From Bacteroidota bacterium (lineage in GTDB: Bacteria; Bacteroidota; Bacteroidia; UKL13-3), in the NCBI GenBank assembly GCA_947446605.1, contig CANFHJ010000007.1, positions 1 through 44,137 on the forward strand: a stretch of DNA of 44,137 nt. Reading direction: 5' to 3'. The translations under genes were made by a program, and so were the position numbers. Numbering within the stretch: the stretch's first letter is position 1; every line of letters begins with the position of its first letter. This document shows positions 2,798 through 16,280 of this stretch, piece by piece. The notes beneath the pieces are model-generated. The model had not been told where the DNA came from and ran no database searches. It was given only the letters and a program-made list of their open reading frames with translations.

Positions 2798-5700
2798 ATG
2801 GAAAAAAATCTACTTCTTGATTCCCTGAAAGCCCCTTCGTCTGTGATGAATTTGGGAATTCCAAGTTTTCTTGCACCTACAAGAAAACATGGAAAAACAT
2901 TTGTAAAAATGTTTTCATTTCTATTTTTAATGTTGCTTGTTTTTAGTGAAGCACGATCCCAATGTTATACGGCGCCAAATTATTGTACGGCTATTACTGC
3001 TACCAATAATGCAAATTACGGTATGGGTATTCAGAATGTAACACTTTACACTTCTGCAATTCCAACCCAAATTAACAATACAACCACTGCAGGTCAAGGA
3101 ACGCAAATCTACTTTAATTATACAAGTATGATTGTGAAAGCAGGTGCTGGTGATTCGGTTTATTTTTCAATCAAAGGTGGAAGTAGCAACCAAACATTGT
3201 TTCGTATTTATTTAGATTACAATGCTGATGGAACTTTTAATACAACTGCACCAGAATTGGTTTATACCTCAGCAAATTTAACCACGGTAAATACCATTGT
3301 GAATGGTTCCTTTATTGTTCCTTCAACTGTTACGCCAGGTACTTATAGAATTCGTGTGGCCAGTGATGGGCAAGGTTTAATTCCAGCGCCATGCGGGCCA
3401 TTAACATATTCTGCAGAATATGAAGATTATACTTTATTTGTACCAGCAACGGTTCCAGATTTTATGTCAACCGCATTTACGCAACCTGCATCTGCAGTTG
3501 TGGGAAACAATACAGTGGCATTTTCATTTACCAATATTTCAAACACTACTATTACCAGTGTAGATATCAATTACCAATTGGGTACAAATTTCCCAGTTTC
3601 TCAATCACTAACTTCAATTTCTGTTTTGCCAGGTGCTACCTATACTGGTACTTTTACAACACAAGTGAGTTTACCTTCAACAGGTAGTTATTTGTTAAAA
3701 GCATGGACAAGTAATCCAAATTATGCTGGAAATAATACGCCAGGTAATGATACCATTTGTAAGAATATTGTTACATATTGCTCTGCGCCTTTAGCTGGCG
3801 CTTATACTATCAATCCTGCTGGTTCAGGTAGTACTAACTTTAAATCATTTGGCGGATTGGATTCTGCTTTAATGTCGTGTGGTGTAAGTGGTGCTGTGGT
3901 TGCAACAGCCACAGCAGGGATTTATAATGAGGGATTAACTTTTACCGCAATTACTGGAGCAAGTCCAACAAATACGGTTACCATTTTTGGAAATGGTAGT
4001 ACCTTGTTATATGCATGTAATGCATCTAATTTATCAGTTGTAAGATTCCAAGGAGCAAAATATATTACCTTAGATAGTTTAAACATCAAAACCAGTGATA
4101 TCAATTATGGCTGGGGTGTTCATTTTTACTTAGGTTCTGATTCAAATACCGTAAGAAATAGCACCATAGATATTTCTGCGGTAACCTCAAGCACGGCTAC
4201 AAACTCTGCGGGTATTGTATTCTCAAATAGTTTAACAAGTCCTACCACCACTGGTATTACTGGCTATAGAAACAATATCATCAATAATTTAATAAAAGGA
4301 AATCCTACTGGAGCAGGTATGTATTATGGTATTGTTGGCGCGCCTTCATCAGCTGCAACCAACGTATCGGCAAATAGGTTCGTAAATAACCGCATTGAGA
4401 ATTTCTATGTGTATGGTATTTATTGGACATTAGGTAACCGTACACTATTTAGAGGAAATAAAATTTCTCGTCCAACCAAATCTACCCTTACCACTACTTA
4501 TGCATTCTACCTCTCTTCAACTTCAAGGGCAGATACCATAGATGGCAATACCATTACTAATTTATATGGAGGTGCACCAACCAATACAAGCACCACTTAT
4601 GTATTTTATGGAATTAACTATTCTGGTTTAAATACCGAACCAAATACATTCTGTAATAACTTGGTATATGATTTGAATGGAGATGGTCCAACTTATGGAT
4701 TTTATTTGTTAACCAGTTTCAATAACAGAATATATAACAATACGTTGTTGTTCGATAACCAAGCTTCTACGAGTTCAAATGCTACGAATGGCTTATATTT
4801 TACTGGTGCAACTTCTGCAACAAGTTTCTTAGATTTTAGAAATAATATTATATCTATTACTAGAACTGGTGGAGGAGCAAAAAATGCTTTATTTACTTCA
4901 GGTTCATGGGCACTTGGAACTACCATGAATAAAAATGCTTATTACAGCAATGCTTCTAATTATGCTTTATGTAACTATTTAGGTGTAAACTATACCACAC
5001 TAGCCAATTGGAAAACAATTATGCCAACATTGGATCAGCAAAGTTTAGATTACAGTGCCAATTTTGTGAATCCAGCAACACAAAACTACTCTCCTAGAGA
5101 TGGTGGTTATGATGGAACTGGTGATAATGTAATTGCATCTGTACCTACAGATTATAAAGGTACTCCAAGGGCATTGCCAATGGATATTGGTGCTTTTGAG
5201 GCTTCTCCTGTTCCAATAGATGCGGCAATGGGTAATATCATTTTACCAGTTGCTCCTTATGTTGCTGGTTCAAAATCTATTCAAGCTACTATTAGAAATG
5301 CGGGTACCACCACCATTACAACTGCAACTGTAAATTGGAGTGTTAATGGTGTAACGCAAACACCAGTTGCCTTTTCAGGAACATTAATAGGTGGTGCATT
5401 TAGTAGCAATATTACTTTAGGCAGTGTAACTGTAGCTGCCAATACTTTATATACCATTCAGGTTTGGGTTAGTTCTCCAAATGGATTAACAGATCCAAAC
5501 AATACAAACGATTTGGTGGTAGATTATACTGCTGCTGCTGTTTCAGGAACGGTAAGCATTAATTCCGCAGGTTCTGGACCAGGGGTGTTTAATTCATTCA
5601 CCGCCTTCTCAAATATTTTAAAAATTGGTGGCTTAGGTGGTGCTGTAACAGCCAATGTTACTGTTGGAAGTGGACCATACAATGAGCAAGCGCAATTCTT

Positions 5701-8700
5701 TACATTTGCTGGCGCAAGTGCTACCAATACCGTTACAATCAATGGAAATGGCGAGTACCTGCAATTTAACAATGCAGATCCAGGAAATATTGGTATTTTA
5801 AATTTAATTGGGGCCAATTATATTACTGTAAACAACTTAAAGATTAAGAGTTTAAATGCAAGTTATGGAATAGGGGTAATTATTACCGCTAATTCAAATT
5901 ATAACAAAATAACCAACTGCTTAATTGATATTGGATCTGTAACAGGTTCTTCATCCTCTGCGGGTGTAGCTTTCACATCTTCATTGAGTAGCCCAGCTAC
6001 AACCGGTACTTTAAATGGAACATATAATCTGATTGAAAACAATGTAATCACAGGTAATGCATCAGGTGGTCCTTACTATGGAATTGGCTATTGTCCAACC
6101 ACTTCATCTAATGCTGCAAATACCTATAATGTTATTAGAAATAATGTCATTAGAGATTTTACTTATTATGGCTTCTATATCATGTATTCGGCAGGTTCAA
6201 CCATTTCGGGTAATGTGATTTCTAGACCCTACAAATCTGCACCAACAACCTTTATGGGCTTTTATGCCATCAATGGTTTGGCACAGGATACCATTGAAAA
6301 CAATGTGATTAAGCAACCGTTTAACCAAACGCCTACTACAACCAATACTTTTTATGGTTATTATTTCTCAACGCCAAATGTGCCTGCAACAAGGCCTGTT
6401 ATCATTAGAAATAACCAAATGTATGATATCAAGTCGGCAGGAGCTATTTATGGTATATATCAAGTATCATCAACGTATTTAAAATTCTTAAACAACAACT
6501 TTGTAATTGACCATGCGGCAAGTACAAGTGCTTCAACTTGCTACTTGTATTACAATTCAGGAACACCAACTACAACCACTATTAGAAATAATATTTTCTA
6601 CTTAAATCGTGGGGGTGCTGGTGCCAAATACATTTATTACCTTGCAACTACGGGTGTTGGTTATGTAATTAATAACAATGTTTTAAGTTTAAAACAATCG
6701 GGTACCAATAATTATATTGGTTACTATGCTGCAAACTTTGCAACACTTGCAACTTGGAAAACAGTTAATACCAATGCATACGACCAAAACAGTGTGGCTG
6801 CAGATCCGCAATTTAGGTTGTCTATCAATCCAGAATATTACCAACCAGGTGCAGACTCAATTAACAATATTGGATTTGCTTCAACAGATGTAATTAAAGA
6901 TGTTGTGGGTGTAACGCGCAGTGCAACACCAGATCCAGGTGCGTATGAATTCAGTGTGCCAGCTGCAGATGCAGGTTTGTCGCGTTTTTCAGCACCTCTA
7001 AATCCATTGTCATTAGGAACACAAAGTGTAAATGCAGTTATTAAAAGTTTTGGATCAACTCCATTAACAAGTGCTACAATAGATTGGAAAGTAAATGGTG
7101 TTTTACAAAGCACCAATTATTGGTATGGATACTTAGCAAATGGCGATAGTAGCAATTATACCTTAGGTTCATATGCATTTACCAATCCGGGTTTTTACAG
7201 GTTAAAAGCATGGACCAGTATGCCTAACGCTGTTGCTGATAGTTTCCCATTAAACGATACTATTAATTTAACTGTTTGTACACCAATGGTAGGTTCTTAT
7301 TTTACCATTAATCCTGCCTTGCCTGCCACTGACACCAACTATGTAAGTATTTCATCTTTTACAAATACCTTACAAATTTGTGGTGTAGGTGGTCCTGTTG
7401 CCGTTACAGTTGCTCCAGGGGTTTACAATAACCAAATTACTTTCAATGGTCCGATCCCAGGCGCATCTGCTACCAATAATGTGGTATTTAATGGTACCGA
7501 TTCTGCCACCACAAAAATTGTACATGATGGAAGCATTCAACGTGCTACTTTGTTATTTAACAATGCACGCAATATTACCTTTAGAAACTTTACCATTGAG
7601 GCTTCGGCAATGAGTGGTGGTGGTTTTGGGGTATTGTTTACCAATGCGGCAGATAGTAATAAAATTATCAGGTGTACTGTTAAAACTTATGCCCAAAATG
7701 CTACAAATGCCAACTCTGCTTTTGTTCCAATTTTATCTAGTGCAAGTTTAACAGCTGCTAATACGGCTGGTAACAATGGTAGTTATTTGGTAATTGACAG
7801 TTGTCGTGTGTTAGGCGGTTATTATGGTATTGATTTATATAATAACTCTGTGCCAAAAGCAACCGATAATGTAATTAGCAATTGTGAAATTATACAAACT
7901 TATTACTATGGTATTATTGCTTATTGGCAAAATAAAATTATTATCAATAACAATAAGTTTAATACAATTGGTAACAATTCAAATGTTTCTTCATTTAGTA
8001 TTTATACTTACCAATGTGATGGCGGTATAAAAATTACCAAGAACCAAATTTATGGTCAGATTGGTGGTTACGGAATGTACATGTACCAACACAATGGAAC
8101 TGCATTGAGCAGAAATATTGTAGCCAATAACATGCTTCAATTAGGTTTAGGAACCAATACAACTTATGGTATTTATGATGGTGGTACCGTTTATACAGAT
8201 ATTGCACACAATACAGTAAACAATACTTCTGGCGATGCTTCTTATGTAAGTACTGCTGTTTATTTCAGTTATGGTGCGCCAGCTACTGCTAATAACTTAA
8301 GAATGGTGAACAATATCTTTACTGCGCCAAATGGTGCAATGGCATTGTTCTGTCCAAGTACAGTTTCATTGTCGTCAAGCAACGTGTTTTTAAACAACAA
8401 CGTTTACTATTCTCCTTCAAGTTATCCTTTCCGTTTGGTAAATACCATTTATCCTACACTTACAAGTTACAAAGGTGGTTTGGGAGCCTTTATTCCTGGA
8501 GTAGATTCAAATGCAATTTGGTTCAACCCAAGCTTCTTTAGTGCAACTAACCTTAGAACCATTTCTCCTCAGGTAGATAGTATAGGTTTGGTATTGCCTA
8601 CTGTGCCAGATGATATTGATGGTAAATTAAGAAGTACCAATGCACCAGATGCAGGGGTTTATGAATTTGCTAGACCTGGCGATGATGCCGGTGTTATCGC

Positions 8701-11458
8701 AATTCTTCAGCCATTTGCACCAGTATCAATTGGAAAAACAAACGTAAAAGTATTGATCAAAAACTTTGGTTTAAATACCTTAACAAGTGTAGATGTGAAA
8801 TACAAGGTTGGGGTTACGGTAGTAACAAGAAACTATACTGGTTCATTATTGCCAGGTGCAGTTGATACTGTAACTTTCGATTCAACCAGTGGTCCTCTAG
8901 CAAGTGACCAACGTTTCAATTATTTAGGTGGTTCGGTAGATATGAAAGCTTATACTACTAATCCGAATTTGGCAGCTGATTTCCAAAACTTAAACGACAC
9001 TTCTTATTTGAGTTTCTGTGGTGCATTAAATGGTGTTTATACCATTAACCCTAGCGGTGTTGGTGCCAATAACTTTACTTCATTTGCAGCAGCAGTTAAC
9101 AATTTAAATTGTGGTGGTGTTTCTGGTAATGTTACTTTTAATGTAGCTAGCGGAACCTATACCACACAGGTTGATATTTCAACCATCAGCGGTGCAAGTG
9201 ATTTTGCAAGGGTTACATTTAAATCTGCAACAGGTAATGCTGCAGACGTAATATTAACGAGTAGTACCTCTACTTCACTTGATAATTATACCCTTCGTTT
9301 GAAAGGTGCAAATTATGTGAACATTGAAAAAATGACCATCAGAAATACCAATGCTACATATGGAAGGGTTATTTCAATTAATAAATTTGCAAGTTTAAAT
9401 GCCAATACAAACAATGTAGTGGTAAGAGGATGTATTCTTGAAGGTTCAATTATTAGCAGTACCGCAGATCAATATGCTATTATTTACAGTCCAGGTGGCG
9501 ATAATGCCAACAACTTAACTTTTGTAAGCAATGCCATTAAATACGGTTCTTACTCAGTTTATGTTGGTGGTCAAAGTATCATTAATTTATACTCTCCTGG
9601 TTTAGTGATTGATTCAAATACATTAACCCAACCTTATTATGCTGGTATTTATTTAACCAGTAGAAAAGATGCGAAGATTCGTTACAATTACTTAGATGGT
9701 AATGCAGCCTATGGTTATTATGGCATGTTCTTAAGTGGTGTTTCGGGAGATATGGAGCTAATTGGAAATAATATTCAAAGCCCTATGGGTACTTATGGAT
9801 TGTATATTTCTACTTTGAATTATTATGGTGAAATTGGTTATGCAAAAATTACTAATAATATAATCAACCTAGCTAGCTCTTCTACGCAATATGGTATTTA
9901 TTTAAACAGTTCTTCAAATAGCTATTTCATCAATAATACAGTTCGTTGTGCAAGTACAACTACTTCGTATGCCTATTATTTCTCTGGAAATACTACCAGT
10001 ACAACTGTTCCTCAGATTGTTGCAAGTAACAATGTGCGTTTAATTAATAATATCTTATATACTGCAGCGGGTTACCCAGTTTATTATGCAAACTTTAATG
10101 CTGTAACTGGTACAAGTGCTGCAGATAATAACTTGTATTATACAAGTGCTGCAAGTTTTGCCTATATAAATGGTATAAATTATGCACCTAGCGCAATGAA
10201 TACTACCTTTAGAAATGCGCTTTATATGGGCAGTGATAGACGTTCATTACATGCGCCAATGACATTTACATCTGCTACAGATTTAAAACCTTTGGTAAGT
10301 AATAACCAATGCTGGGCTGCAAATGGTAGAGGTCAACAAAGTACATTTGTACCTAAAGATTTCAATGGCTTAAACAGAAGTATTGCGGTTGCAACAGGCG
10401 CTACAGATATTGGTGCTTGTGAATTTACACCAACAGTTATTCCAGCAGCTGCTACCATTACAGGAAGTATCATGGGTGGAAATACCCAATACCTAATTGC
10501 TTTTGGTGATACAGTAGGAAAAGTTGTTTGGGGTTATGCTGGAACTTTACCAACAGCTATTAGCGCAACTTACCATACAGGTGCATTAATTAGCGATCCA
10601 AGCAATGGCGGCAGAAATATTGGCGCACATTACATGGATGTGTTCTGGAGAATTATTGCAAGTGGTGGTGCATATTACAGTTATGATGTTAGCTTTAATT
10701 TTGATCCAAATATGTTGGGAACCGTTCCTTCAATGTCTGATATTAAATTGGCTAAAAAGCAAGTTGGTGTATCTGGTACTTGGACCCATTATGGTTATAC
10801 ATTAACAACTGTGGATTCAGTAAATTACAATTTCGGTGTAATGGGATTGCCAGATTTCTCAGATTTTACTGGAACTTCAGATTTTGCGCCATTGCCAGTT
10901 AAATTGGCTCGTTTTGAAGCAATGAGAAGTGCAGCGGATGCCTTGTTAAATTGGAATACAGTAAGCGAATTAAATAGCCGTACTTTTGAAGTTGAACGCG
11001 CAGGTGATGGCAAAAACTTTGTTAAAATAGGTTCGGTAAATGCTGCTGGAAATTCAGTTAAAACAATTGCCTACCAATTTGAAGATTTAGGTGCCGCAAA
11101 TGCATATGCTGCTCGTCGTGCTTACTACCGTTTAAAAATGATAGATAAAGATGGTAAGTTTGAATATTCACCAGTGAGAGTTGTAGACTTTAACGATGAA
11201 AGCGACGCTGCTCTTGCTGTATTCCCTAATCCATTCACAGATAAATTGAACTTAACTTTTGATAAAGTAGAAGAAGGAGCTGTTCAAATTGAAGTGATAG
11301 ACCTTTATGGAAAAGTATGCTACAAATCAGAACAAATGATCAACTCAAGCAATCCTGATGTAGTGTTAACTGCTATGAATAAATTAAGCAATGGTATCTA
11401 CGTAATTAAAGTTAGCAAAGGCGCTAGCGTTTATACCCGTAAATTAATTAAGGAATAA
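2798..11458 (+). CDS. Giant T9SS-secreted beta-helix/CARDB repeat protein
   Basis: This 2,886-residue protein is probably exported through the inner membrane by Sec and through the outer membrane by the type IX system. The hydrophobic signal is at about 38-55 (FSFLFLMLLVF...SQ), after an unusually long charged N-region; an internal ATG (residue 38) could be the true start. Residues ~60-217 resemble a GEVED domain (DYNADG ... AEYEDYTL). Residues ~219-2543 hold four similar units, each a CARDB-like Ig domain followed by a TINP-headed right-handed beta-helix rich in Asn, Gly and Thr and closed by a D(I/P/A)GxxEF motif. A module from about 2698 (LPVKL) precedes the C-terminal type A sorting domain, which starts at 2809 (FPNPFTDK) and ends NGIYVIKV...RKLIKE. 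An adhesin or surface polysaccharide-binding role is inferred; no catalytic residues were recognised. Confidence 0.9.
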   Translation: MEKNLLLDSLKAPSSVMNLGIPSFLAPTRKHGKTFVKMFSFLFLMLLVFSEARSQCYTAPNYCTAITATNNANYGMGIQNVTLYTSAIPTQINNTTTAGQGTQIYFNYTSMIVKAGAGDSVYFSIKGGSSNQTLFRIYLDYNADGTFNTTAPELVYTSANLTTVNTIVNGSFIVPSTVTPGTYRIRVASDGQGLIPAPCGPLTYSAEYEDYTLFVPATVPDFMSTAFTQPASAVVGNNTVAFSFTNISNTTITSVDINYQLGTNFPVSQSLTSISVLPGATYTGTFTTQVSLPSTGSYLLKAWTSNPNYAGNNTPGNDTICKNIVTYCSAPLAGAYTINPAGSGSTNFKSFGGLDSALMSCGVSGAVVATATAGIYNEGLTFTAITGASPTNTVTIFGNGSTLLYACNASNLSVVRFQGAKYITLDSLNIKTSDINYGWGVHFYLGSDSNTVRNSTIDISAVTSSTATNSAGIVFSNSLTSPTTTGITGYRNNIINNLIKGNPTGAGMYYGIVGAPSSAATNVSANRFVNNRIENFYVYGIYWTLGNRTLFRGNKISRPTKSTLTTTYAFYLSSTSRADTIDGNTITNLYGGAPTNTSTTYVFYGINYSGLNTEPNTFCNNLVYDLNGDGPTYGFYLLTSFNNRIYNNTLLFDNQASTSSNATNGLYFTGATSATSFLDFRNNIISITRTGGGAKNALFTSGSWALGTTMNKNAYYSNASNYALCNYLGVNYTTLANWKTIMPTLDQQSLDYSANFVNPATQNYSPRDGGYDGTGDNVIASVPTDYKGTPRALPMDIGAFEASPVPIDAAMGNIILPVAPYVAGSKSIQATIRNAGTTTITTATVNWSVNGVTQTPVAFSGTLIGGAFSSNITLGSVTVAANTLYTIQVWVSSPNGLTDPNNTNDLVVDYTAAAVSGTVSINSAGSGPGVFNSFTAFSNILKIGGLGGAVTANVTVGSGPYNEQAQFFTFAGASATNTVTINGNGEYLQFNNADPGNIGILNLIGANYITVNNLKIKSLNASYGIGVIITANSNYNKITNCLIDIGSVTGSSSSAGVAFTSSLSSPATTGTLNGTYNLIENNVITGNASGGPYYGIGYCPTTSSNAANTYNVIRNNVIRDFTYYGFYIMYSAGSTISGNVISRPYKSAPTTFMGFYAINGLAQDTIENNVIKQPFNQTPTTTNTFYGYYFSTPNVPATRPVIIRNNQMYDIKSAGAIYGIYQVSSTYLKFLNNNFVIDHAASTSASTCYLYYNSGTPTTTTIRNNIFYLNRGGAGAKYIYYLATTGVGYVINNNVLSLKQSGTNNYIGYYAANFATLATWKTVNTNAYDQNSVAADPQFRLSINPEYYQPGADSINNIGFASTDVIKDVVGVTRSATPDPGAYEFSVPAADAGLSRFSAPLNPLSLGTQSVNAVIKSFGSTPLTSATIDWKVNGVLQSTNYWYGYLANGDSSNYTLGSYAFTNPGFYRLKAWTSMPNAVADSFPLNDTINLTVCTPMVGSYFTINPALPATDTNYVSISSFTNTLQICGVGGPVAVTVAPGVYNNQITFNGPIPGASATNNVVFNGTDSATTKIVHDGSIQRATLLFNNARNITFRNFTIEASAMSGGGFGVLFTNAADSNKIIRCTVKTYAQNATNANSAFVPILSSASLTAANTAGNNGSYLVIDSCRVLGGYYGIDLYNNSVPKATDNVISNCEIIQTYYYGIIAYWQNKIIINNNKFNTIGNNSNVSSFSIYTYQCDGGIKITKNQIYGQIGGYGMYMYQHNGTALSRNIVANNMLQLGLGTNTTYGIYDGGTVYTDIAHNTVNNTSGDASYVSTAVYFSYGAPATANNLRMVNNIFTAPNGAMALFCPSTVSLSSSNVFLNNNVYYSPSSYPFRLVNTIYPTLTSYKGGLGAFIPGVDSNAIWFNPSFFSATNLRTISPQVDSIGLVLPTVPDDIDGKLRSTNAPDAGVYEFARPGDDAGVIAILQPFAPVSIGKTNVKVLIKNFGLNTLTSVDVKYKVGVTVVTRNYTGSLLPGAVDTVTFDSTSGPLASDQRFNYLGGSVDMKAYTTNPNLAADFQNLNDTSYLSFCGALNGVYTINPSGVGANNFTSFAAAVNNLNCGGVSGNVTFNVASGTYTTQVDISTISGASDFARVTFKSATGNAADVILTSSTSTSLDNYTLRLKGANYVNIEKMTIRNTNATYGRVISINKFASLNANTNNVVVRGCILEGSIISSTADQYAIIYSPGGDNANNLTFVSNAIKYGSYSVYVGGQSIINLYSPGLVIDSNTLTQPYYAGIYLTSRKDAKIRYNYLDGNAAYGYYGMFLSGVSGDMELIGNNIQSPMGTYGLYISTLNYYGEIGYAKITNNIINLASSSTQYGIYLNSSSNSYFINNTVRCASTTTSYAYYFSGNTTSTTVPQIVASNNVRLINNILYTAAGYPVYYANFNAVTGTSAADNNLYYTSAASFAYINGINYAPSAMNTTFRNALYMGSDRRSLHAPMTFTSATDLKPLVSNNQCWAANGRGQQSTFVPKDFNGLNRSIAVATGATDIGACEFTPTVIPAAATITGSIMGGNTQYLIAFGDTVGKVVWGYAGTLPTAISATYHTGALISDPSNGGRNIGAHYMDVFWRIIASGGAYYSYDVSFNFDPNMLGTVPSMSDIKLAKKQVGVSGTWTHYGYTLTTVDSVNYNFGVMGLPDFSDFTGTSDFAPLPVKLARFEAMRSAADALLNWNTVSELNSRTFEVERAGDGKNFVKIGSVNAAGNSVKTIAYQFEDLGAANAYAARRAYYRLKMIDKDGKFEYSPVRVVDFNDESDAALAVFPNPFTDKLNLTFDKVEEGAVQIEVIDLYGKVCYKSEQMINSSNPDVVLTAMNKLSNGIYVIKVSKGASVYTRKLIKE
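3452..10426 (+). repeat. Four tandem ~580-residue protein modules
   Basis: Inside the giant gene, units cover about 3452-5203, 5204-6952, 6953-8668 and 8669-10426. The 'YTINP' heads of the helices fall at residues 336, 919, 1501 and 2081, spaced 583, 582 and 580 residues. The closing motifs DIGAFE, DPGAYEF, DAGVYEF and DIGACEF lie at 796, 1379, 1951 and 2537. The copies are diverged at DNA level, so the duplication is old or the array has been diversified, and the spacing has been kept very regular. Confidence 0.8.
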
Positions 11459-11530: not shown

Positions 11531-12724
11531 TCAGGCATTTGCCTTCTGAAATAAGGCGGGAATTGTTTTAATAATTAGAATTAAATCTTTCCAAAATGAA
11601 TTGTTTTTGGCATACTCATTGTCTAGTTCCATTCTTTCTGCTTCGCTCATTTGTCCTCCTTTGCCTCGTTTTGAAACTTGCCATAAACCAGTAATTCCGG
11701 CTGGGGCCATAAACCGCAAGGCAAATTGGTCGGTGGTAAGTTTTTCTGCCTCATACAATGGCAAAGGCCTATTGCCAACTATACTCATGTCGCCTCTTAA
11801 AACATTGAATAACTGAGGCAGTTCGTCTATGCTAGTATTGCGCATAAATTTCCCCAATTTTGTAATGCGTGGATCATTTTCAATTTTACTGAATTTTGCA
11901 TTTGATTTCGCCAATTTGGCAGCAGCATAAACCTTTTCGCAAATCATTTCTCCATCCATAAATAATTTAGATTTACAAGGAGAATTACTGGTTTTACATT
12001 CCTCACACAAATAGGCCTTAAAGTCATCTACTGTTGTTGGTTCACTATTACCGTATTGATTTAAATGTTGTAGGTTTTTCAAAAGAGAATCTGAACCCAC
12101 GCGCATGGATCTAAATTTATAAAAATCAAATAAGGTATAGCCTGATCCAACCCGTTTAGAAGTATATAAGATGCCTCCCTTTGTTTCAATTGAAATTACT
12201 GCGGCAACTAAAAGTAAAAAGGGAGAAAGTGTAACAATTGCAGTTAGAGAAAATACAATATCGAATGCCCTTTTTGTTAGTGGTGTGGCGTATTTAGGAA
12301 ATGAATTAGGATTTTTAATAAGTGATTTATGGTAGCGCGGTGGATTCTCAATAAGGAATAATGCCCGCTGCATAAATTCTTCTTTTTTAAGTGGGAGCTC
12401 AAAAATATCTGCAAACTGCTCAATTAACGCAATGTTTTTATTAGCTGTTGTAATGCGGTCAACAATTATAACAAATGGCACATTGGCTGTTTTAGCAAGT
12501 GTTTTGCAATTCTTTCGGAGTGAGATACCATTTGCTCCAAGTAAATCAGAATTGGTAACAATTAAACTTACAGGAGGATTTTCTGCTGTCCATTGAAAAA
12601 ATTGAAAAACATTGTTAAAATGTTTGATTTCAAAATCGTCTCTGAATTCATGGGTGAAGGTTACAATTGCTCCTAGGTTAGATGAAATAAAGACTATTCT
12701 TGGAATAGGTGTTCTGTTTTCCAT
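11531..12724 (-). CDS. Phosphoglycosyl transferase with N-terminal pseudo-receiver
   Basis: The C-terminal part is a bacterial sugar transferase (PF02397, PglC/WcaJ type) that moves a sugar phosphate from a nucleotide sugar to undecaprenyl phosphate. Its membrane segment is ~155-180, followed by KFRSM (203-207), NDPRITKLG (283-291), the catalytic Asp-Glu pair in DELPQ (D300/E301) and VGNRP (316-320; VGPRP is usual). Residues 1-125 follow the receiver fold but the phospho-acceptor position is N58, the conserved Lys is L110 and the acidic pair is Ser-Ser, so this domain should not be phosphorylated in the normal way. Between KFRSM and the DPRIT motif lies an insert of about 75 residues holding C240, C243, C250 and C262. 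The ATG directly abuts the stop of the upstream receiver gene, implying translational coupling. Confidence 0.88.
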   Translation of the reverse strand: MENRTPIPRIVFISSNLGAIVTFTHEFRDDFEIKHFNNVFQFFQWTAENPPVSLIVTNSDLLGANGISLRKNCKTLAKTANVPFVIIVDRITTANKNIALIEQFADIFELPLKKEEFMQRALFLIENPPRYHKSLIKNPNSFPKYATPLTKRAFDIVFSLTAIVTLSPFLLLVAAVISIETKGGILYTSKRVGSGYTLFDFYKFRSMRVGSDSLLKNLQHLNQYGNSEPTTVDDFKAYLCEECKTSNSPCKSKLFMDGEMICEKVYAAAKLAKSNAKFSKIENDPRITKLGKFMRNTSIDELPQLFNVLRGDMSIVGNRPLPLYEAEKLTTDQFALRFMAPAGITGLWQVSKRGKGGQMSEAERMELDNEYAKNNSFWKDLILIIKTIPALFQKANA

Positions 12725-13105
12725 TTAAATGGTCTTAAGTCTTCTAAAAATATTATCTATGCGCGCATCCAACTCTTCCAAATTAAAAGGTTTAATGAGG
12801 TAATCATCTGCACCAGCTTTTAAGCATTTAATTTTATCTGTGGTACCCTCATTTCCAGAAAGCATAATGAGCGGCACATCTCTAAAAAAACCACTGCTCC
12901 TAATTTGCCTAATAAACTCTAAGCCATTTATTTCAGGCATATTTACATCTGCAATAATTACATCTGGAATTACACCTTGCTGCATCCATTCCAAAGCTTC
13001 TTTTCCGTTTTGCTTGGCAACAACATTATAGTTTTTGTTGAAATAAAAATCGAGAATCTTTAGGATACTTAATTCATCGTCGAGCGCTAATAAAGTCTTC
13101 TTCAT
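12725..13105 (-). CDS. Stand-alone response-regulator receiver
   Basis: This is a single receiver domain of 126 residues with no output domain. It has the acidic pair D9/D10, phospho-acceptor D53 (in IADVNMP), S83 and K105 (in LIKPF), so it should be phosphorylated normally. It lies 20 bp after the NtrC-type gene and has zero gap to the sugar transferase downstream. It may be a phosphorelay intermediate or act by binding its neighbour protein; the pseudo-receiver of the transferase is a natural candidate partner (inference). No histidine kinase is present in the window. Confidence 0.93.
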   Translation of the reverse strand: MKKTLLALDDELSILKILDFYFNKNYNVVAKQNGKEALEWMQQGVIPDVIIADVNMPEINGLEFIRQIRSSGFFRDVPLIMLSGNEGTTDKIKCLKAGADDYLIKPFNLEELDARIDNIFRRLKTI

Positions 13106-13125
13106 GGTCTGGGGTATTTCGCTTC

Positions 13126-14493
13126 TTATTTTTTATAGATTTTTTGGAAAGATTCTGTTTTCATAATTCTGTAAATGGTAGATTTTCCAATATTTAATTT
13201 CTTGGCAACCGCAATTACATTGTCATCGTATTTGTCTAAAAACAGTTTAATAATTAAATTAGAATAATCGTCAAAACTCATTTCCTGAGATAGAATATTG
13301 CTAATAGATTTCTCTGAATGGTAGGTGATGTCTTTTATATCTATAGTCGCATTGTCGCATAGCACGCAAGCCAATTCTATAATTGCTTTTAATTCTCTAA
13401 TATTCCCTGGAAAAGAGTAATCAAGTAGTTTTTTTTGCGCTTCATTGCTCAATATAATTTTACCTGATTTGTTTTCTTTTACATAGTCATCAATAAAATA
13501 TTTTGCAAGATGAATTACATCATTTCCTCTATCCCTTAAAGGGGGTAAATGAATGGGCAAACCTAATAAACGGTAATAGAGATCTTCCCTAAATTTGCCT
13601 GTTTGTACCTCTTGTGCTAAATTTTTATGTGTGGCTACTATAATGCGAACATCAATTGGAATTGCCGTGTTGCTTCCTATTCTTGTTACTTCGCGCTCTT
13701 GCAAAACACGCAATAATTTTGCCTGTACATTAAAATCTAATTCGCCAATTTCGTCTAAAAATATGGTTCCTTTTATGGCCTGTTCAAATTTTCCAATTCG
13801 TCGCGCATCTGCACCTGTAAAGGCGCCTTTTTCATGGCCAAATAATTCGCTTTCAATTAAATCTTTGGGAATGGCGGCAACATTTACTGCAACAAACGAA
13901 TACTTCTTTCTATCGCTGTTATAATGTATGGCTTTTGCAACTAACTCTTTTCCAGTGCCCGTTTCGCCTGTAATTGAAACAGTAATTTTACTATTGGAAG
14001 CTTTTTCTACATAAGCAAAAGTCTTTTTTAATGCCTCGCTGTTCCCTATAATCGATTTAGAGAAGTCGTATTTTTTTCCAAGGTCTTCTCTTAATTCAAT
14101 AATTTCAGTTTTCAATGAAATATTTATCACTGCATTCTGAACAGAATTTAGCAGGCGATGCTTGGTGTCTTCGTTTTTAATTAAATAATCAAATACGCCT
14201 AATTTCAATAATTCAACCGCAGTGCCAATATCTTCCTGACCAGAAATTACAATAATTTGAATTTGCTCATCGGCCTCTTTTATTTTTTTAATTAATTCCG
14301 AACCATTCATTCCTGGCAAAGAATAATCAATGGTAATTACATCTGGTTTTTGATGTAAATTGTTGAGGCAATCTTTCGCATTTTCAAATGCAATTACTTC
14401 GTAATCGGGATTGAGTTGCAAGGAATAGGTAAGAAAATTTCTATACCAATTGTCATCTTCTACAACGAAAATTTTCGGATTTGTCTTTGCCAT
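13126..14493 (-). CDS. NtrC-family sigma-54 response regulator
   Basis: This 455-residue activator has three domains in the standard order. The receiver (1-125) has D13/D14, phospho-acceptor D56 and K106. The AAA+ sigma-54 interaction domain (~147-375) has Walker A GETGTGKE (176-183), GAFTGA (223-228, which contacts sigma-54), Walker B FLDEIGE (245-251) and FREDLYYRL. A Fis-type helix-turn-helix lies near the end (VAKKLNIGKSTIYRIMK). It should switch on sigma-54 promoters when phosphorylated. As the head of the receiver/sugar-transferase run, it probably controls surface polysaccharide, possibly including its own operon (inference). I found no clear -24/-12 element by eye in the 70-bp gap upstream. 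Confidence 0.95.
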   Translation of the reverse strand: MAKTNPKIFVVEDDNWYRNFLTYSLQLNPDYEVIAFENAKDCLNNLHQKPDVITIDYSLPGMNGSELIKKIKEADEQIQIIVISGQEDIGTAVELLKLGVFDYLIKNEDTKHRLLNSVQNAVINISLKTEIIELREDLGKKYDFSKSIIGNSEALKKTFAYVEKASNSKITVSITGETGTGKELVAKAIHYNSDRKKYSFVAVNVAAIPKDLIESELFGHEKGAFTGADARRIGKFEQAIKGTIFLDEIGELDFNVQAKLLRVLQEREVTRIGSNTAIPIDVRIIVATHKNLAQEVQTGKFREDLYYRLLGLPIHLPPLRDRGNDVIHLAKYFIDDYVKENKSGKIILSNEAQKKLLDYSFPGNIRELKAIIELACVLCDNATIDIKDITYHSEKSISNILSQEMSFDDYSNLIIKLFLDKYDDNVIAVAKKLNIGKSTIYRIMKTESFQKIYKK

Positions 14494-14563
14494 ATCTTGG
14501 GTTCGAAGTACAAATATGGGCTTTTTGTCGCAAAATGGGAAGAAGTATTTTTTTAAAACTTTT

Positions 14564-15490
14564 TTAAGCGCGGCTTTGAAAATCTTGGTAGGCCATTTTT
14601 ATACCATTTGCAAGGCTTACAGCGGGTTTCCATCCCAAAGATTTAATTTTGCTTACATCCATTAATTTTCTGGGGGTGCCATCTGGTTTCTCTGGGTTGA
14701 ACCTTAATTCTCCCTCAAAACCTACAATTTCCTTGATCAATAAGGCTAAATCTCTAATGCTCAAATCCTCCCCACTTCCAATATTTAGGAACATTTTTTC
14801 ATTGTAATCTTGCATCAACAAAAAAGCTGCAGCGGCTAAATCGTCTACATACAAGAATTCCCGCAATGGATTTCCCGAACCCCATACTTCAACAAATGGG
14901 GCTTTGGCCAATTTGCCTTCATGAAATTTTCTAATAAGTGCAGGTAAAACATGCGCGTTTTCTGGGTGGTAATTGTCGTTTGGCCCATACAAATTTGTAG
15001 GCATCACCGATACATAATTGCAGCCATATTGGTCTCGGTAGGCTTCGCACATTTTAATACCAGCAATTTTAGCTATGGCATAGGGCTCATTTGTTGGTTC
15101 TAAAATACCTGTAAGCAAACTTTCTTCTTGCAGTGGTTGTGGGGCTAATTTTGGGTAAATGCAGCTCGATCCAAAAAACATCAATTTCTCTATGCTGTTT
15201 AAATAGCTATTATGAATGATATTGTTTTGAATCATCAAATTCTCATATATGAATTGAGCCCTGTAGGTATTGTTAGCGCCTATACCACCTACTTTGGCAG
15301 CAGCTAAGAACACATATTTTGGTTTTTCACTTGTAAAGAAATTTGCCACCGCCACTTGGTCGGTTAGGTTAAGTTCCTTAGAAGTTCTAACAACAATATT
15401 GGTAAAACCTTCTTGTGTTAATTTTCTGTGAACGGCCGATCCAACCATTCCTTTATGTCCTGCTATATAAATTTTGTCTTGGTGCTGCAT
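14564..15490 (-). CDS. fcl: GDP-L-fucose synthase
   Basis: This is an NADPH-dependent epimerase/reductase of the extended SDR family that converts GDP-4-keto-6-deoxymannose to GDP-L-fucose, a donor for surface glycans. I chose the ATG at 15490, which gives 308 residues and puts the Rossmann motif GHKGMVG at 11-17, as in the family; a longer frame would add 26 hydrophobic residues that do not belong. The catalytic residues are Ser in FFGSSCIYP (108/109) with Y137 and K141 (YAIAK). The AKVGGIGAN segment is typical. The partner dehydratase Gmd is not in the window. It lies 70 bp before the NtrC-type gene and may share its transcript. Confidence 0.93.
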
Positions 15491-15539
15491 TGTTACTGCA
15501 ATGATAATAAATTGGGTAGTGAATAGGAAAGCTTGTTGT

Positions 15540-16280
15540 TTATCGTAATTTCTTTTTATAAATACCAACCATTTCTTGTTTGGTGTGTTCGCTAAATTTT
15601 GAGTTGTAAATCATTTTATACTGGGTTCCCATTTCTATGGAATCGTAGCGTTTAACACGCAATTCACGGGTGTAAAAAATGGCAATTAATTCATTACGGT
15701 AAAAAACCATTAGCAAGCGCGGCTCTAGTATTTGTTGGGTAAAATTGGGCTGAACCAATAAGTAAGAAGTATACTCATTGCTTTCAATGGTTTGGTTTAA
15801 TTCATACTTTTTAATGAAGCTTTCAAAATAAGTGTATTTCTCGTTTTCTGAAGCTTCATCTAACAAGTTCCCAAGCGCTTCCTCTGCAATAAAGGTATTG
15901 TCTGTGCAAGATTTTTCAAGATAGCCTGCAATAACAATATGTGTTAAACTGTCTTTAAGTTCTAGTATTTTTAATGGATTAAACCCTGTTACCACCTTGC
16001 CAATTGGCTTGCGTTCTTGGTTGTATATCTTAGCTTTTGGCTGCAGCATAATGCCATCATACAATTCGCTTGTTTTAATCCATGCGTCTATCCAAATTCT
16101 ATTCCTTAATGGCGATGCGCCAATGCAATGAAAAAACACACGAGGGTAAAGGCTCAATACTTCTTTGCCTTTTTCTTCTTCACTCATGGCACAATAGCCA
16201 CTGGTTCTTTCTGCAAAAGAATTGGCAATGCTCAAGAAGCAAAGCAATAAGAAAATGTATATGTAATTATTTTTTTGCAA
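15540..16280 (-). CDS. Exported protein of unknown function in polysaccharide run
   Basis: No family is recognised. The 246-residue product starts with a signal peptide ([18 protein letters not shown]), followed by a soluble domain of mixed alpha/beta character with three cysteines (two early, one near residue 124) and a Lys-rich C-terminus. Its start lies inside the 3' end of the DedA gene (14-bp overlap) and it ends 49 bp before fcl, so it is almost certainly co-transcribed with both. A periplasmic accessory role in envelope biogenesis is only a guess from position. Confidence 0.75.

Follow-up and report, generated by a model that had tools for sequence, protein, structure and literature searches.

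A candidate type IX-secreted surface stalk built from four CARDB-like and beta-helix modules in a Bacteroidota genome

One open reading frame of a freshwater-type Bacteroidota genome encodes what is probably a surface-held stalk, exported by way of Sec and the type IX secretion system (T9SS), in which four modules, each a CARDB domain plus a beta-helix, carry a GEVED head in an adhesin-like arrangement. The gene lies at 2798–11458 (+) of the window, i.e., the whole stretch of 44,137 nucleotides that was analysed, and its translation reads as a secreted-type protein of 2886 residues with a signal peptide region, GEVED, four abutting units, and a C-terminal part with a T9SS sorting domain, in this order (Table 1). 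The start codon of the reading frame is uncertain, as similarity to most orthologues starts only at aa 20–41, and Met 17 or Met 38 is a possible true start.

Table 1. Features of the array protein and their positions in the window
Feature	Position	Strand	Residues (aa)	Basis
N-terminal signal region	2798..2956	+	1-53	Hydrophobic core KMFSFLFLMLLVFSEARSQ; read from translation
N-terminal head with GEVED	2957..3445	+	54-216	Pfam PF20009 at aa 135-213, E 5.8e-13
Unit 1 CARDB-like domain C1	3446..3787	+	217-330	hhalign vs C2-C4, E 5e-8 to 2.5e-12
Unit 1 beta-helix H1	3788..5203	+	331-802	hhalign vs H2-H4, E 4e-85 to 9e-33; unit alignment
Unit 2 CARDB-like domain C2	5204..5539	+	803-914	Modelled beta-sandwich; PF07705, E 2.4e-4
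Unit 2 beta-helix H2	5540..6952	+	915-1385	AlphaFold2 model
Unit 3 CARDB-like domain C3	6953..7288	+	1386-1497	AlphaFold2; PDB 2kl6, target TM 0.72 (two-unit model)
Unit 3 beta-helix H3	7289..8668	+	1498-1957	Model; AlgE4 2pyh, Z 30.2, rmsd 2.8, 324 residues
Unit 4 CARDB-like domain C4	8669..9022	+	1958-2075	hhalign vs C3, E 5e-22
Unit 4 beta-helix H4	9023..10426	+	2076-2543	Best Pfam Beta_helix at 2236-2387, NosD at 2210-2402; hhalign
C-terminal linker domain	10427..10867	+	2544-2690	Orthologue identity 65%; no Pfam family
Beta-sandwich domain preceding sorting tail	10868..11197	+	2691-2800	Strands pLDDT ~80; no Pfam name
T9SS type A sorting domain	11219..11455	+	2808-2886	PF18962, E 5.7e-11; TIGR04183, E 1.5e-10

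Domain architecture and the four-unit repeat

The units measure 586, 583, 572, and 586 residues in order (aa 217–802, 803–1385, 1386–1957, and 1958–2543), with the signal region and GEVED head (aa 1–216) and the C-terminal part (aa 2544–2886) outside them. Every unit starts with a CARDB-like sandwich (~115 residues) and continues as a capped right-handed beta-helix (~465), and the joints between units span 0–3 residues, i.e., there is no linker. The initial annotation had described a fourfold CARDB plus beta-helix array at 3452–10426, which matches the units delimited here (3446–10426) and was confirmed by unit alignment, hhalign, and structure prediction. Its finer readings needed small corrections: the helix heads (YTINP, SINSA, FTINP, and YTINP, at aa 336, 920, 1502, and 2081) are spaced by 584, 582, and 579 residues, so that of the earlier values of 583, 582, and 580 the middle one was exact and the other two differ by one residue; likewise, the closing motif D(I/P/A)GxxEF ascribed to every unit is present in units 2 to 4 (DPGAYEF, DAGVYEF, and DIGACEF), while unit 1 ends in EA (DIGAFEA), which gives D(I/P/A)GxxE(F/A) for all four.

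A BLASTP comparison of the whole protein with itself gave no off-diagonal matches; the similarity emerged in unit-by-unit alignment. Whole-unit local alignments among the window's four units were 27–36% identical across 592–638 columns and scored 399–740 against a shuffle maximum of 145 (z of 23–48; 200 shuffles per pair). The HMM–HMM comparison that had been suggested as a check was significant throughout, with E values of 5e-8 to 3e-25 between CARDB profiles and of 7e-25 to 4e-85 between helix profiles (all from orthologues), and all six pairs of unrelated control profiles gave E >0.1. At the DNA level, the repeat copies are 68–74% identical to the reference, and the longest repeat in the gene is 31 nt, i.e., there are no long DNA repeats. 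In trees, the units group by position and not by species, so that the four were already distinct before the species split and, being orthologous by position, stem from ancient duplications that were not homogenised; recent duplication or homogenisation was ruled out by this clustering and the shortness of the longest repeat. Collapse or expansion of the repeats during assembly is unlikely for the same two reasons, i.e., the absence of long near-identical DNA repeats and the position-wise clustering.

Structure prediction was run with AlphaFold2 on units 2 and 3, using an alignment of 40 two-unit rows (mean pLDDT 88.6, pTM 0.59), and the helix and CARDB assignments held in the resulting model. 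Each modelled unit consists of an antiparallel sandwich and, behind a capping alpha-helix, a right-handed parallel beta-helix with ~11–12 coils, as counted from the strand pattern, although the pTM makes the unit-to-unit orientation, and hence a straight rod, uncertain. Positions invariant in 40 of the 40 rows are mostly asparagines in short turns between strands, and the Asn ladder proposed from the sequence is found there (337, 367, 403, 431, 462–463, and 492 in model numbering); like the cap glycines and the closing motif, which are also common to all units, it is structural. The Pfam Beta_helix family (PF13229) was recognised above cut-off (E 8e-11, seven stretches), and PDB matches to the helix included AlgE4 (Z 30.2), NosD, tailspikes, RbmB, PfbA (Z 25.8), and PL6 lyases; as modelled, the H domains are predicted to be right-handed parallel beta-helices with an N-terminal cap. 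CARDB was not recognised in the whole-protein Pfam scan. When the CARDB-like domains were excised, 40 of 64 family members matched PF07705 at E up to 0.1 (best 5.7e-7), with the window's C2 at 21.7 bits, under the cut-off of 22.7. The modelled fold, which matches PDB 2kl6 and 3idu (target TM 0.66–0.72, rmsd 3.2–3.7), and profile similarity to these proteins indicate that the C domains carry the CARDB beta-sandwich fold. The C-terminal linker (aa 2544–2690), predicted with a five-row alignment, had a pLDDT <50 over most of its length.

Predicted export and anchoring, and possible function

The sorting tail scored 40.9 bits with TIGR04183 (cut-off 23) and 43 with PF18962 (cut-off 27), and the host genome encodes SprA (2225 bits), five PorP/SprF-like proteins, and ~86 sorting tails, in keeping with the T9SS anchor that the initial annotation had placed at the end of the array. 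Judged by sequence, the protein would qualify as T9SS type A cargo, with its sorting domain and a T9SS-encoding genome. We propose that it passes the Sec pathway and then the T9SS, and that the C-terminal sorting domain would hold it at the cell surface, where the four modules, end to end, would form an elongated stalk that lifts the GEVED head off the cell. If the units stack in line, the stalk would extend ~10 nm per unit and ~40 nm in total (4.8 Å per coil plus the sandwich), and the ladder faces of its helices may also bind glycans. Adhesion or glycan contact would then be the task of the protein, and proteins of this family are probably stalk-like surface adhesins. Among the features of a fibrillar adhesin, GEVED and an anchor are present and Pfam names no adhesive domain; in particular, the Pfam scan of the protein did not recognise NR2, the adhesive partner of GEVED in Csh-type adhesins.

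Besides the modest pTM and the unrecognised NR2 domain, a further point against a stalk is that the best fold matches of the helices are mostly carbohydrate-active enzymes. The nearest folds (AlgE4 alginate epimerase, PL6 alginate lyases, GH136 lacto-N-biosidases, and phage tailspikes) and the charged or aromatic residues that are invariant among orthologues at each helix position (e.g., W439, H442, and D448 in H1) would suit a carbohydrate-active enzyme with several sites, or a surface protein that binds glycans; its helices would bind and perhaps cut or epimerise polysaccharide, its CARDBs would be spacers, and the T9SS would export it to feed on glycans of algae or plants. We consider this unlikely, as Pfam and NCBIfam scans found no CAZy-type family, the residues invariant across units are structural, and the neighbouring genes (cystathionine gamma-synthase upstream; sugar-phosphate transferase and regulators downstream) do not form a sugar-utilisation locus. 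The helices are moreover poor in His and in charged residues (8–10%), with no charged in-coil cluster common to all four, so that a scaffold or binding surface fits better than an enzyme, although catalysis by a single unit may still be compatible with the low charge and with no recognised catalytic family.

The Asn/Thr-rich, low-charge, and repetitive sequence, the T9SS tail, and the strong purifying selection would also suit a surface-layer or matrix protein (armour or biofilm scaffold) that is not adhesive and has no specific ligand. This alternative seems to us quite unlikely, because the separate GEVED head, the best conserved segment of the protein (74% identity among orthologues), moves between arrays, and a conserved and mobile head suggests that the tip has a task of its own. 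The earlier interpretation of the array as a rod or adhesin was half correct: the protein is best read as an adhesin-like stalk exported by the T9SS, and its rod geometry and adhesin function are what we infer.

Downstream of the gene, at 11531–16280 (−), the window encodes an exopolysaccharide-type sugar-phosphate transferase, a small conserved gene (12725–13105), and an NtrC-type sigma-54 regulator, a gene set that is conserved at the loci L040 and L041. The Bacteroidota promoter motif occurs six times in the window (5.3 expected), and no occurrence lies upstream of the array gene.

Length, unit number, and domain exchange in the family

Every unit is under strong purifying selection, with a dN/dS of 0.08 between the window and the close relative G012 (837 codons) and of 0.13 over the whole protein between the window and G003, where dS is near saturation. 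The strong drift that had been read inside each helix applies between units, at the 27–36% identity given above, and not within orthologous units, which are 57–64% identical (dN/dS ~0.08). The genus is represented by 19 genomes, of which 11 contain a complete GEVED-headed orthologue with four units, and in another six it is interrupted by contig ends, with remaining parts that agree with the four-unit form. G015 has four helices without the GEVED–C1 head, and the gene of G018 (L118, G018:C52:52633-64797), with the same cystathionine gamma-synthase gene upstream, carries six units. A unit profile found arrays throughout the taxonomic family of the host genome, and named records with arrays include Chitinophaga, Hymenobacter, Adhaeribacter, Niastella, Lewinella, and others. 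In complete array proteins the number of full-length units ranges from 2 to 10, and the largest protein found, with ten, has 6985 aa. Counting units in relatives, as the initial annotation had advised for detecting recombination, thus gave a constant four in the 11 complete orthologues and variation beyond them.

Several side observations concern these relatives. Giant proteins of 5600–6985 aa (L119/L141 at G031:C29:86603-107557, L120/L142, L122/L143, L123/L144, L124/L145, and L146) have eight to ten CARDB/beta-helix units per reading frame, only some with a GEVED head. At L068, L069, L092, L108, and G031:C29:282366-295639, two to four adjoining genes per locus encode unit-bearing proteins, which suggests that the family expands also as tandem genes. 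The window's own genome contains two paralogues interrupted by contig ends, L136 (G000:C112) and L137 (G000:C80), the former with additional stretches resembling the GEVED region in mid-protein.

Selection for a rod of fixed length was not supported in the form first suggested. The length of the array is conserved, yet no more than the remainder of the protein: the unit domains show 0–0.65 indels per 100 aa (zero in three of the four CARDBs among 12 orthologues), compared with 0.55 in GEVED and 0.25–0.56 in the two C-terminal domains. Unit size is instead a family trait, with a period of 570 ± 14 residues (range 540–603; 156 adjacent pairs) that is common to all arrays, those of the 5600–7000-aa relatives with 9–10 units included. 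Selection could also act on total length, with four units of fixed size setting a defined reach, which may hold together with the stalk reading and would agree with the paucity of indels and with the narrow span of the 11 complete four-unit orthologues (2874–2932 aa). We find this very unlikely, however, since indel rates are not below those of the other domains, the syntenic G018 gene carries six units, and the same unit size recurs in paralogues and distant relatives with 2–10 units, which points to a size that was inherited and not tuned in the window's protein.

The arrays of the family have also had parts reshuffled. The GEVED head is common to the four-unit orthologues and the G018 protein with its six units, and several of the giants carry it too; the 12 CARDB domains that follow it form a single group (SH-aLRT 93), whereas the helices downstream of these CARDBs scatter over several distant groups. 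Forcing those helices into one group cost 748 log-likelihood units (p-AU 0.003), where the tested group was named after a prior look at a FastTree tree, so that the p-value is not fully pre-specified; the likelihood gap is nonetheless large. With the CARDBs grouped and the helices scattered, GEVED and C1 have been joined to different helix arrays, i.e., the trees indicate domain shuffling between the GEVED plus CARDB head and different helix lineages, with a breakpoint near the CARDB/helix joint. In the G018 array, the first and last three helices group with those of units 1, 2, 3, and 4, the two extra helices group among the units of the giants, and the CARDB ahead of the unit 2-like helix is not of unit 2 type, which, in moderately supported trees, is consistent with an inserted foreign C-H-C-H-C stretch. 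We tentatively hypothesize that stalks of this family are assembled from a kit of an exchangeable GEVED plus CARDB head cassette, a pool of diverged, abutting CARDB/beta-helix units of standard size, and a T9SS tail; it is possible that the head, the reach (2–10 units), and the binding face at each helix position evolve separately, and that every helix position recognises a glycan of its own.

Comparison with known systems

Our literature search found no paper uniting CARDB, beta-helix, and type IX secretion. PfbA belongs to a Gram-positive bacterium and has one helix and, to our knowledge, no array of CARDB plus helix units. The solved part of this pneumococcal adhesin (PDB 3zpp and 4mr0) resembles the H domains in being a right-handed beta-helix (fold match with Z ~25). 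PF1109 CARDB (PDB 2kl6 and 3idu), from an archaeal protein, has the same sandwich fold as the C domains and profile similarity to them. The archaea Methanobrevibacter and Methanosphaera have adhesin-like surface proteins (PMC11532034) that similarly combine right-handed beta-helices with Ig-like stalk domains, but there the helices are clustered at the N-terminus, ahead of big-domain repeats and membrane anchors, whereas the window protein alternates sandwich and helix and ends in a T9SS signal. The Knotted Solenoid fold (PMC13123833), described for 14-kDa Brevundimonas proteins, was ruled out.

Periscope Proteins (PMC9704523) share with the window protein a monomeric tandem-repeat stalk whose repeat number varies between related genes. 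The stalk repeats listed in that review of them are of 50–165 residues, and Periscope Proteins need very high identity between repeats, in contrast to the divergent units of ~570 residues (27–36% identity) found here. Length switching of the Periscope type was ruled out on repeat identity and the absence of long DNA repeats; unlike in Periscope Proteins, nearly every species of the genus has the same number of units, which is thus not a population-level switch.

Close parallels were seen in Csh-type fibrillar adhesins (PMC10952558), which have a signal peptide (a putative signal region in the window protein), an N-terminal GEVED region, a stalk of repeated domains, a C-terminal surface anchor, and domain shuffling. 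In adhesins, GEVED is known to accompany adhesive domains and to be exchanged between stalks. The window protein differs in having no recognised NR2, a stalk of CARDB plus beta-helix units, and a T9SS sorting tail as anchor. Our data suggest that domain shuffling as in Csh-type adhesins extends to proteins of the T9SS, where the breakpoints lie close to the joint between sandwich and helix. The composite repeat of ~570 residues is constant in size throughout a wide family in which the number and order of the repeats vary. Its duplicates are old, position-specific, and not homogenised, and the family, with proteins of two to ten modules, offers a natural series in which the relation of reach to attachment could be tested.
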